A model generated the notes under the pieces. That model saw only the letters and a program-made list of their open reading frames with translations. It searched no databases and was not told the DNA's origin. Made by a program: the position numbers and the translations under genes. From the NCBI GenBank assembly GCA_013538715.1, contig JACAFH010000001.1, positions 62,001 through 126,000 of the forward strand: a DNA stretch of 64,000 nucleotides, written 5' to 3'. Every line of letters starts with the position of its first letter. Within the stretch, counting starts at the first letter, position 1. Source of the stretch: Candidatus Nitrosothermus koennekei (GTDB lineage Archaea; Thermoproteota; Nitrososphaeria; Nitrososphaerales; Nitrosocaldaceae). Positions 32,382-47,870 of this stretch are shown here, one piece after another.

Positions 32382-33407
32382 ATGAGTAATATATGTTACA
32401 TAACACCACCTCACATACTTAGAGAAGTTATAAAACGTGGTAACGATAGACAAAGAGAATGGGCATTAAACACACTTATGTTATCAGAGAGATTTCGTGG
32501 TTCTAGACAGAGTATAAGTATAACAATGGTTTCAGAAGTAATAGAAGAGAAGAAGAGGTATGTCTATGATGCAAAGGGTGGTTACATACTTCCAGGAGTG
32601 CTAGTGCGTGAAGAAGGTGGTAAAGATTCTAATGATAAAACAGTAAATGAGGCTTATGATGGCGCTGGTGCTACATATGATCTCTTCAAGAATGTTTATG
32701 AGAGAAATTCTATAGACGATAGAGGTATGAGTATAATCTCTACTGTGCATTATGGTAAGGAGTATAATAATGCGTTCTGGGATGGGAGACAGATGGTATA
32801 TGGAGATGGAGATGGAGAGATCTTTAATAGATTCACAAAATCTATAGATGTAATAGCCCATGAACTAACTCATGGAATCACTCAATATGAAGCAGCATTA
32901 GTTTATTGGGATCAACCAGGAGCATTAAACGAACATATGTCAGATGTATTCGGTTCAATAGTTAAACAGTATGTGATGAATCAAAAGGTTGATGAAGCAG
33001 ATTGGCTTATTGGAGAGGGACTATTTACCTCAAAAGTTAATGGTATAGCATTACGTTCTATGAAGAAACCAGGTAGTGCATATGACGATCCAATACTTGG
33101 TAAAGATCCTCAACCATCACATATGAAAGATTATGTAGATACAAATGATGATAATGGAGGAGTTCATATAAACTCTGGAATACCAAATCATGCTTTTTAT
33201 CTTACTGCTATGGAATTAGGAGGATATTCATGGGAGAAGGCTGGTTTGATATGGTATATAGCATTAAGAGATCTACTCAGGCGTAGATCTAACTTTAAGC
33301 GTGCCGCACAAGTAACGTGTAAAGTAGCAGAGAGGATATTTGGAAAGAATAGTAAAGAGTATAATGCTGTGTACAATGGTTGGAAAGAAGTAGGTATAGA
33401 GATCTAA
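32382..33407 (+). CDS. M4 metallopeptidase, protealysin-like
   Basis: 341 residues of the thermolysin family: HELTHGITQYE (His160, Glu161, His164) and the third zinc ligand Glu184 in GALNEHMSDVFG, plus GGVHINSGIPNHAFY with the catalytic His. The short N-terminal propeptide (ICYITPPHILREVI...QREWALNTL) is the protealysin type. There is no signal peptide, so the protein is cytoplasmic or exported by another route. This subfamily is mostly bacterial, so transfer is likely. The usual small inhibitor gene (emfourin) next to bacterial protealysins is absent. Confidence 0.88.
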   Translation: MSNICYITPPHILREVIKRGNDRQREWALNTLMLSERFRGSRQSISITMVSEVIEEKKRYVYDAKGGYILPGVLVREEGGKDSNDKTVNEAYDGAGATYDLFKNVYERNSIDDRGMSIISTVHYGKEYNNAFWDGRQMVYGDGDGEIFNRFTKSIDVIAHELTHGITQYEAALVYWDQPGALNEHMSDVFGSIVKQYVMNQKVDEADWLIGEGLFTSKVNGIALRSMKKPGSAYDDPILGKDPQPSHMKDYVDTNDDNGGVHINSGIPNHAFYLTAMELGGYSWEKAGLIWYIALRDLLRRRSNFKRAAQVTCKVAERIFGKNSKEYNAVYNGWKEVGIEI

Positions 33408-44288: not shown

Positions 44289-45112
44289 GGGATTGTCAAG
44301 ATAATACTGATGACATAATTACTAATCTAATTAGAATGGCAATATAGGGAAGTAGATAATAATGCTATGCTAATAAATGGGATGCTAACATAACATCTTG
44401 TAGTAGATAGGTTAAGCAGTTAAAGATCAATAGTATATACTATCAACAACTTCTATACGCCTATCACATCAATCAATATTCTCTTAATATCATCAAGTTA
44501 TATAATCCTATGAATACTGTTAGGAACTCTGTTATAGCGTATAGATGATCTTAATTGAAAGTTATTATAGAATGCTTTAGCATCTCTAATATTACAAAAC
44601 CAGAATTCTATACTATTCTTCTTCCCTCTAGTTATCTGCTCGTACTCTAAGCCTAGATTCTTTAATGCATCTACATTGTCCATTATCTACTAGTATCAAT
44701 GGCTTATTCTCACAATAAAGTATCTTCTTTAGGAATAGTTCTACATCCAACGAGTTTGTATATGATACTTAAGCAAGTATCTCTTTTTTGTATCTATATC
44801 TAGCATAATACATAAACATGATCACCATTTAGTCTTGCTTATCTATTGCAATAATTCTTCTATACTTCCTTTCAGGCTCCTTAATTAAGAACGTTCTTAG
44901 GAGCATTATACCACTGCCTAACAGCTTCATATGATAATCCCTTCAATTTGGATATACTTCGCAATGATAAGCCAGAGGTATGCATCAAGCTGCTAGTATC
45001 TTACCCTCCAAAGGTACCTTATTCCTCTTTATACTAGATTCTCTTTGTAATTTAATGCATTTATGAGGTTAATTAGAACAAACTATAGCATAAATGTTAT
45101 CTTGACAATCCC
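44289..45112 (-). mobile_element. Dead IS6-like insertion sequence
   Basis: Perfect 16-bp terminal inverted repeats, GGGATTGTCAAGATAA (44289-44304) and its complement (45097-45112), bound an 824-bp element, the IS6 size. On the minus strand the transposase is recognisable in pieces: SLRSISKLKGLSYEAVRQWY (N-terminal helix-turn-helix), RRIIAIDK (first Asp), VELFLKKILYCENKPLILVD (second Asp), then after a frameshift near 44683 ALKNLGLEYEQITRGKKNSI, EFWF (Glu) and AFYNNFQLRSSI. Two in-frame stops and the frameshift make it inactive. No target-site duplication was found. Confidence 0.85.
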
Positions 45113-45467: not shown

Positions 45468-46118
45468 ATGTCAATAATAGATAACATAAGAGGATTAGCG
45501 ATCATAACAGTAGCATCAATAACAATTATACTCTTACCTATAACATCTGTATATGCTACAGATTATTACTCAGGACGTCGATGGGGTGGCACTACTGTTG
45601 ATCTATGTTATGATGCTTACGGTCTAAGTTCTCTTAGAATAGATGGTCAGATCAATCAATATACAAAGGTCCAGCAACAGATAGACATAGCAAGGAATGA
45701 TTGGAATAATCTGCCATCAAGATTCACATTGAATAAGGTAAGAAGTGATCAGTGGTGCATAAACTGGGTCTATGGTGCAAATAGAGGTTATAACGGACCA
45801 GCAGCTGAAACAATGTTATGTATAAATTCTGTATCAACATGCTATTACAGTTTTGATAATATGCCTAGCGATAATATAGTAAAGGCTGCTGTAACATTCA
45901 ATACCTATGATTCATGGAGCACCACACGAGAATGTACCTCATGGGCAGATGAGGATGGACCATGGACATTGAATTATGTTGCAAGACATGAGTTTGGTCA
46001 TTGGGTAGCATTTAAGCATACTGCTACGGTATCTGTCATGTACTACCTCTATAACTGTAATTATAGAGATTCTATAAAACAACACGATAGTGATTCTCTA
46101 ACCTCTATATATGGGTGA
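45468..46118 (+). CDS. Secreted metzincin-like zinc protease
   Basis: 216 residues from the ATG at 45468 (MSIIDNIRG followed by a hydrophobic core up to SVYA, a clear signal peptide); the open frame extends 24 codons further to 45396 without a better signal. The catalytic site is HEFGHWVAFKH (His174, Glu175, His178, His184), the metzincin zinc motif with Ala in place of the usual Gly. A Met-turn (SVMYYLY, Met191) follows. VDLCYDAYG and ARNDWNNLPSRF precede it, like the matrixin core. Six to seven Cys suggest disulfides. It overlaps the next gene by four bases and lies in an island of transposon debris. Confidence 0.75.
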   Translation: MSIIDNIRGLAIITVASITIILLPITSVYATDYYSGRRWGGTTVDLCYDAYGLSSLRIDGQINQYTKVQQQIDIARNDWNNLPSRFTLNKVRSDQWCINWVYGANRGYNGPAAETMLCINSVSTCYYSFDNMPSDNIVKAAVTFNTYDSWSTTRECTSWADEDGPWTLNYVARHEFGHWVAFKHTATVSVMYYLYNCNYRDSIKQHDSDSLTSIYG

Positions 46119-46123
46119 TAGAG

Positions 46124-47053
46124 ATGAAGAGAATACTTCTAATATGGATATCAGTAATTACAATAGGAGTAATAGTTACAGGGATAACAGTTACCTATAT
46201 CACATCATACATGCTACAAGATGTTCATACAGAGGCTGAAAATATAGAGTCATATACACCCGGATATATGGGGGATGGTTACTTTACTCTAGACAATATG
46301 TCTAGATTTGCAAGATATATAGTAATAGGTACCGTAGTAGATGAAACTACTAATCCTTATAATGTAAGAGATAAGATTGAGGAGTATCATTCTGGTATCA
46401 CAGTTAATATAGATACAGATCTTACTGGCATGTACAACGATAAAATGATACATTTCGTTGGCCCGTCAACAAACTGGGTTAAAGCAGGGGATAAGATCCT
46501 TGTATTTCTAGCAGATAAGGAACCAAATAGTGTATGGGGTGATAACTATTACATAATAGGAGGATTATATGGACTCTTCAAGGTGATTGATAGTAAAGTG
46601 TATGGGGAGATCCTGCCAGACGGATTAGTGTTAGAAGATGCTATCAAGGTAATAGAGGAGGCTAGAGCTAACAGAATAAAGAATGTCTCGCTAAATGCAA
46701 AATATATAGTGATAGGGAAGATAAGCAATGTAGTAAGAGAGAACCCGTATTCAGATCTTTATATTACAGCTAATATTGAGAAGGAATTAACAGGTAATTA
46801 TAACGAGAAGAGTATGACACTTCTTATTGATGAGAATATATTAAAACACTGGGGTGAAGGTAGGATAGGAGAGAGGTATCTATTCTTCGTTAGAGATGAT
46901 AGCAGTGAGAGTATTAATACTAGCTATCACATTAGTAAAAGCGGTATATACTACATTAATGAAGATAATATAGCGATAGGGCGTGAGTTTCCAGAAGGTA
47001 TACCAATAGAGGAGTTGGAGGCAAAGATAATCAAGTTCAGGAGAGGATTCTGA
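46124..47053 (+). CDS. Membrane-anchored protein with two related repeats
   Basis: 309 residues from the ATG at 46124 (an in-frame GTG at 46115 overlaps the protease stop). An N-terminal membrane helix (ILLIWISVITIGVIVTGITV) is uncleaved or a signal; the rest is extracellular. Two copies of a domain of about 110 residues follow: ARYIVIGTVVDE...DLTGMYNDK...ILVFLAD...YGLFKVID, and AKYIVIGKISNV...ELTGNYNEK...YLFFVRD...SGIYYINED, each ending with a PDGL or PEGI turn. I do not recognise the domain. Coupled to the protease gene, it is a candidate inhibitor, substrate or anchor for it. Confidence 0.65.
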   Translation: MKRILLIWISVITIGVIVTGITVTYITSYMLQDVHTEAENIESYTPGYMGDGYFTLDNMSRFARYIVIGTVVDETTNPYNVRDKIEEYHSGITVNIDTDLTGMYNDKMIHFVGPSTNWVKAGDKILVFLADKEPNSVWGDNYYIIGGLYGLFKVIDSKVYGEILPDGLVLEDAIKVIEEARANRIKNVSLNAKYIVIGKISNVVRENPYSDLYITANIEKELTGNYNEKSMTLLIDENILKHWGEGRIGERYLFFVRDDSSESINTSYHISKSGIYYINEDNIAIGREFPEGIPIEELEAKIIKFRRGF

Positions 47054-47588
47054 GATACATAGTCTTTTCTAGACATGTAGCGCTTAGGAATCATCAGCCT
47101 AGAGCACCTCATTAGTTCATTGGAGCTCTCATCAGCCCTATCCTCCTGTCAGAGTGAACCTGTCTCATCCATTCAACCCATCTGAGGTGGAGAAAGTTCA
47201 TCAATATGAAGGCTATACAGTGCTCTTTCGGACGTTAATCTTATTTTACCATTCTACAGTTAAGCACCTTCCTTGATTTCTTTGTATTCTATTAATTATT
47301 GCTTTGTTGTATGACTAGCGAGAGATGTTTTGATATATACTCTTAAGACGATTGACACAAGTATAATTAATAGGTTAAGAGATCCTCTTCTCTTCATTTA
47401 GTGTTAGATAATTGGAAGGATTAGTTAATGAGGATAAATAAGGGTAAGGAATGCTATATGTCCATCATCCTAACTCTTTATGAAGTATGCTTAAACTTAG
47501 CCTACAGCAGAATGAAGGAATTATAAGAGCATTCACTCTCACTAGCAGACTACATATATAAAGATAAACAAATTATAGATGATATGCA
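47054..47588. other. Non-coding block of different composition
   Basis: The first 200 bases are close to half GC, unlike the flanks, and carry no open frame. A hairpin AGAGC-A-CC (from 47100) with GG-A-GCTCT and a repeated GGCTGATGA on the minus strand are visible. The latter recalls C/D-box RNA boxes, but the set is incomplete. The remainder has scattered short frames (for example 33 codons from about 47428) without recognisable content. Probably decayed imported DNA. Confidence 0.4.
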
Positions 47589-47720
47589 ATGATGTATTCA
47601 TTGTTATATAGATATGATATAAAGGTAAGAAGGAACTCAAATACTGATGATGTAAAGAAAGATGTTGGTTGCAAGAACCTATTAAATGGAAGAAGAGAGT
47701 TAGCTAGAGCAAATGGATGA
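47589..47720 (+). pseudogene. Transposase relic, IS5-like
   Basis: A 43-codon frame reads YRYDIKVRRNSNTDDV and KKDVGCKNLLNGRRELA before a stop. IKVRRNS followed by a charged segment and Gly-Cys is typical of the region between the second Asp and the final Glu of archaeal IS5-type transposases. The ES-F-S block expected next is missing. It marks the right edge of the accessory island. Confidence 0.4.
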
Positions 47721-47870
47721 TGAAGTTGGGCATGTTATGGCAAAGAAGTACGTTAACAATAAGGCGGGTGTATGTCAATGTATTATGCAATAAAGCACAT
47801 AATGATATAAACTCAAACCCGTAATTTTATATAAATAAGTTTTAAATCTATCTATATATAAAATATATTC

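Follow-up and report, generated by a model that had tools for sequence, protein, structure and literature searches.

An archaeal gene pair encoding a predicted secreted matrixin and a membrane-anchored protein with two NTR/TIMP-like domains, its candidate inhibitor

In Pseudomonas aeruginosa, the adjacent co-transcribed genes of the pairs AprA/AprI and Mep72/BamI encode metzincin-binding proteins, and co-expression of bamI abolishes the toxicity of Mep72 (PMC4334185). The matrixins of animals (PF00413) are paired with TIMPs (PF00965, MEROPS I35), which are regarded as an animal invention, are not expected in archaea and are reported to have originated with the eumetazoan radiation (PMC10755359). 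Clusters of subtilisin-like proteases and serpins have been described in sponge-associated ammonia-oxidising archaea (PMC6790972), and a 2025 study of MMP gene transfer covers a few archaeal MMPs, the words TIMP and NTR being absent from it (PMC12587646). Our search of the open-access literature, outside which most subscription journals lie, found no text on TIMP-like proteins in archaea and no paper on the gene pair described here.

The pair, hereafter genes A and B, lies on the forward strand of the window, i.e. the whole analysed stretch of 64,000 nucleotides from Candidatus Nitrosothermus koennekei, to which all positions refer. In keeping with this source, its gene content and the relatives detected suggest a host among ammonia-oxidising archaea and their kin (Nitrososphaeria), probably close to Nitrosocaldaceae. 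An earlier reading of the sequence alone (the sequence-only reading) had called both open reading frames, which are indeed present, open and complete. Gene A (45468–46118) encodes a predicted secreted matrixin (M10) metalloprotease of 216 aa, and the features first described in it were all recovered. The signal peptide covers residues 1–30 (45468–45557; TSVYA/TDYY), with cleavage after SVYA and a hydrophobic start that is kept across the aligned homologues. The zinc-binding motif HEFGHWVAFKH (H174–H184; 45987–46019) contains the three His and the Glu of the consensus HExxHxxGxxH, with Ala in the metzincin Gly position, and is followed by the Met of the Met-turn SVMY (46038–46040). The Pfam Matrixin profile (PF00413) matches A with an E-value of 5.2e-7 (30.1 bits, above the curated cut-off of 24), the M10 match reaches the C-terminus, and among proteins of solved structure human collagenases come closest, with weak matches. 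These results indicate that A is an archaeal secreted relative of the human matrix metalloproteases and a predicted protease. The first metzincin strand begins almost directly past the signal peptide, and A therefore has no propeptide. Across paralogues and homologues of A, one of Ala, Ser, Met and Glu fills the Gly position, and in certain copies Asp replaces His as the third ligand. Matrixins with single-domain B partners (L044, L045, L202 and L203) often carry Asp for the third zinc His (HEFGHYVEFKD, HEFGHWVMFDD, HEIGHALGLGD and HELGHVLGLYD), whereas those of the two-domain pairs retain His.

Gene B encodes a protein with a single hydrophobic helix at its N-terminus (46133–46204; helix 2–35 in the whole-protein model) and two copies of a domain that sequence libraries do not recognise, as the sequence-only reading had it. 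One profile finds both repeats, at residues 59–181 (5e-41) and 188–306 (2e-32), each of about 130 residues; they correspond to domain 1 (46280–46678) and domain 2 (46679–47050). The N-terminus is positively charged, from which we infer that the domains should face outside, and a low-confidence linker (residues 28–51 of the whole-protein model) separates the helix from the first domain. B does not contain any cysteine. The two genes had been thought to overlap at a GTG start codon, and the GTG at 46115, from which B would be 312 aa long, does share four bases with the stop codon of A. However, B probably starts at the ATG at 46124, giving 309 aa (46124–47053), since seven loci of the window's family have GGG TGA as the last two codons of A, with an ATG 4–8 bases after the core GGTGA, and since the GTG frame of the closest relative (L039) hits a stop after two codons. 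The sequence GGTGAT (46114–46119), made up from the last Gly codon and the stop of A, resembles a Shine-Dalgarno core, and its conservation as GGGTGA suggests that the stop codon of A forms part of the ribosome-binding site of B, which would be an economical way of coupling. The coupling of A and B is tight whichever start B uses; in more distant pairs, there is either an overlap of 1–10 bases or a gap of 3–6 bases.

Searches of Pfam, NCBIfam, PADLOC and PDB sequences returned nothing usable for the B repeat. A weak Phr match to B was rejected as it covers only the hydrophobic N-terminus, and the searches likewise led us to reject a known defence system. The TIMP profile (PF00965) matched none of 41 domains even at an E-value of 10, nor anything in 7 genomes, and no sequence-level link of the B domain to TIMP or NTR families was found. 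The strand pattern of the repeat had hinted at an NTR/TIMP-like OB-fold before any structure was available, which was taken as a lead only. The AlphaFold2 model of domain 1, built with 41 homologous domains from the fetched loci (pLDDT 91.3, pTM 0.86), is a strand barrel with a helix at each end and none between strands 3 and 4. Agrin NtA domains take the first four places among its PDB matches (E-values of 1e-4 to 3e-4, TM 0.54–0.58), and two of these entries carry the title 'structurally related to N-TIMP-1'. The PCOLCE1 NTR domain and TIMP-2, also from the MMP-13/TIMP-2 complex, come next, among ribosomal S12 and other OB-folds. The TM values for the NtA, PCOLCE1 NTR and TIMP-2 matches (0.45–0.58) are moderate, and a TM of about 0.55 denotes the same fold class rather than close kinship, OB-folds being common. 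The whole-protein model, which includes domain 2, matched NtA, complement C3 CTC, the meteorin NTR domain and TIMP-2. From these models, we conclude that the B repeat is predicted to adopt an NTR/TIMP-like OB-fold; the profile searches and structure prediction, which the sequence-only reading had proposed for this repeat, yielded no known unrelated function.

B-like genes were sought with B alone and then with a profile, without the use of A. A matrixin, whole or decayed, lies directly upstream of 21 of the 42 B-like open reading frames found, on the same strand and ending near the start of B; the profile that identified these neighbours was partly trained on them, and Pfam independently confirms several. 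Around the 42 frames, the opposite strand and the remainder of the 1.5 kb examined contained no matrixin. Genomes of the order encode about 1–11 matrixins, so that well under one matrixin adjacent to B is expected by chance, and with 21 such neighbours we reject chance proximity. The pairs span several archaeal families, contrary to the separate occurrence of the homologues that would have refuted the sequence-only reading. A phylum-wide search added four further pairs, three in other families (L202, L203 and L205, with a four-base gene overlap in L202 and L205) and one of another kind elsewhere in the window's own genome (L057). Several paralogous copies of the pair occur per genome, and in the majority of the order's genomes with matrixins no B-like gene could be detected. 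Distances between A proteins correlate with those between B domains (r = 0.82 over 16 pairs, reached by none of 5000 permutations); the correlation is 0.91 within the family, again not reached in 5000 permutations, and weak (0.25) for the seven most distant pairs alone. One functional unit composed of A and B is the best explanation of these results.

We propose that this unit consists of a surface protease and a membrane-tethered controller, most likely an inhibitor, and consider this explanation to have a somewhat better than even chance of being correct. A would be exported and, having no propeptide, would be potentially active once its signal peptide is removed. B would be translated from the message of A by coupled translation and held in the membrane by its N-terminal helix, exposing its two NTR/TIMP-like domains on the outside; these would bind A and keep it inactive or locally restrained, thus protecting the cell's own surface proteins. 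In the fused relatives described below, the same domain takes the pro-domain position before the catalytic domain. The sequence-only reading had left open whether B is inhibitor, substrate or anchor; the predicted fold makes an inhibitor the best fit of the three.

Such an arrangement resembles AprA/AprI and Mep72/BamI in that a secreted metzincin is accompanied by an adjacent, co-conserved partner gene on the same strand. Unlike those systems, the partner here is archaeal, has two domains, a predicted NTR/TIMP-like fold and a membrane anchor, and is a candidate inhibitor; Pfam assigns B to no inhibitor family, that of AprI included. The resemblance to the animal MMP–TIMP system lies in the combination of a matrixin domain with a partner of predicted NTR/TIMP-like OB-fold. 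However, B falls outside the TIMP family: it shows no sequence similarity to TIMPs, has neither Cys1 nor disulfides, and is membrane-tethered. The TIMP mechanism, in which a free N-terminal Cys1 chelates zinc, is impossible for B, as it contains no cysteine and its domains are tethered N-terminally. Given the reported eumetazoan origin of TIMPs, we do not claim common descent. Agrin NtA, a TIMP-related NTR-like domain, is the best structural match of the B domain; it is part of an animal protein, and identity is about 16–17%. The clusters of sponge-associated archaea share the arrangement of secreted protease genes adjoining inhibitor-family genes in related archaea, but involve another protease class and another inhibitor fold, and were not described as translationally coupled. 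Should B indeed restrain A, archaeal matrixins would be under the control of an NTR/TIMP-like domain, either fused or in trans, which would imply very old ancestry or that one fold was recruited convergently against a single class of protease. The pair would then offer a simple model, made up of two genes, of how archaea cope with dangerous proteases that they secrete to their surface.

That the two genes belong together is corroborated by gene fusions, as in four other families (L136/L167/L168, L169/L170, L212 and L217) a domain of the same kind precedes a matrixin in a single chain, at its N-terminal side, with PF00413 above its cut-off in L136, L212 and L217. The profile of the B domain matches that of the fused domain with a probability of 97% and an E-value of 4e-11. 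The fused domain sits before the catalytic domain, in the position of a pro-domain. A scan of named genome contigs returned no relative when B was the query; with the fusions as queries, it returned four archaeal fusions and one domain standing alone. The latter is a secreted NTR-like domain of an Ignavibacteriaceae genome (L191:2390–2884) that is closest to the fusion type, and shows that the NTR-like domain is not limited to archaea. Fusions of this domain to matrixins are common in bacteria; none was documented in the plasmid search here, in which tblastn with the fusion query was matched by the catalytic half only and the L191 domain query had no match.

The fate of the two genes differs. 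Intact A is accompanied by intact B in all eight cases in the window's family, where no intact A without B was found, while seven B genes are intact although their A is disrupted or absent. One syntenic locus carries an intact A in G004 (L045), a disrupted A in G001 (L048) and no A in G002 (L051), with B preserved in all three (dN/dS 0.11–0.16); at a second, G004 and G006 have both genes intact, and A is truncated in G002. Independence of the loci in this comparison is incomplete, and dS shows partial saturation. For the window's pair, dN/dS against the nearest relatives is 0.14–0.22 for A and B, and 0.15–0.19 for A alone against its two nearest, by which we reject the reading of A and B as pseudogenes. 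That B outlives A would be expected of a protector, which should not be lost first, and less so of an anchor or a substrate. The conservation of B after the loss of A also weighs against our proposal, as it means that B has another use or another target.

These observations bear on a role of B as an anchor or docking platform that keeps the secreted matrixin at the cell surface without inhibiting it, preventing its loss while it acts on surface or captured substrates. Such a role would suit a tethered B and an A that has no anchor of its own, and the closest match in fold, agrin NtA, binds laminin and is no protease inhibitor; in the fusions, the domain could act as an adaptor. However, a pure anchor should disappear with its cargo, whereas B persists under purifying selection after A is gone and the family yielded no intact A lacking B. 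The fused domain before the catalytic domain also resembles a pro-domain, and we consider anchoring unlikely. That same position in the fusions, the lack of a propeptide in A and the translation of B directly after A would equally suit a pro-domain acting in trans, needed for the folding of A during or after export, with inhibition as a mere side effect. As most matrixin-bearing genomes of the order lack a detectable B, matrixins there generally fold alone, and the survival of B without A would be left unexplained, which makes a folding role quite improbable. It is similarly doubtful that B is a substrate whose ectodomain is shed by A as a switch in surface signalling or remodelling, since a dedicated substrate would be expected neither to be fused to its protease nor to persist without it, despite the predicted co-expression of A and B in one compartment and a modelled linker (residues 28–51) that would suit cleavage.

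The proposed restraint of A by B could also serve competition among archaea, in that A would damage the surface of neighbouring cells and B would protect the producer, and orphan B copies kept after the loss of A would confer resistance. This idea of a mobile protease-and-immunity module draws on horizontal transfer, paralogous copies, the retention of B without A and the divergence of the pairs as units, and we regard it as a rather unlikely extension; if true, it would rest on the use of an NTR/TIMP-like fold against matrixins outside animals. Mobility had been proposed from the sequence alone and is supported by the divergence of the pair relative to housekeeping genes. When the window's genome is compared with G004, identity is 64% for DNA ligase and 67% for prolyl-tRNA synthetase, whose synonymous sites are close to saturation (pS 0.71 and 0.76), whereas it is 83% for A (pS 0.35) and 71% for B (pS 0.51). 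The relation is reversed between G004 and G006, with a pS of 0.22–0.25 for housekeeping genes and 0.45 for A. The G004 copy lies in another gene neighbourhood and its GC3 is low (0.29–0.33, against 0.45 for the G004 housekeeping genes), and the pair of G006 (L040) has transposase-like genes as neighbours. The window's pair differs much less from its counterpart in another genus than the housekeeping genes do, and has therefore moved between genera by horizontal transfer. Of the transposon relics thought to flank the pair, the left one is supported, as a transposase fragment on the reverse strand (44498–44683) with multi-copy homologues in several genomes, but nothing transposon-like or repeated was found to the right (47054–47870). 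The GC content of the pair does differ from that nearby, though only mildly (35% against 30–33%).

Beyond the pairs, many relatives of the domain stand alone or within other surface proteins. It forms the N-terminus of larger exported archaeal proteins at L130, L134, L138, L140, L207, L214 and L218, several of which share a recurring 'SPLKQFKSGI..C' module. We conclude that the NTR-like domain is a widespread and hitherto unnamed module of archaeal surface proteins; the B domain may be a general binding module, a point against the proposed role. A widespread unannotated archaeal surface domain is thereby given a name and a testable function. Elsewhere in the window, a second, thermolysin-like metalloprotease (32382–33407) has a protealysin-like start without an obvious signal peptide, and no inhibitor-like gene was seen beside it. 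Two further exported proteins, neither with a known function and one showing propeller-like repeats, are encoded directly before a pair on contig 18 of the window's genome (L041:6518–8166). In two Nitrosopumilaceae-like genomes (L210:1387–3247 and L213:3–1866), a weakly NTR-like protein directly precedes a different, M6-like metalloprotease with the motif HEYGHSLGWDH or HETGHNFNWNH, and the NTR-like domain may partner more than one protease family.
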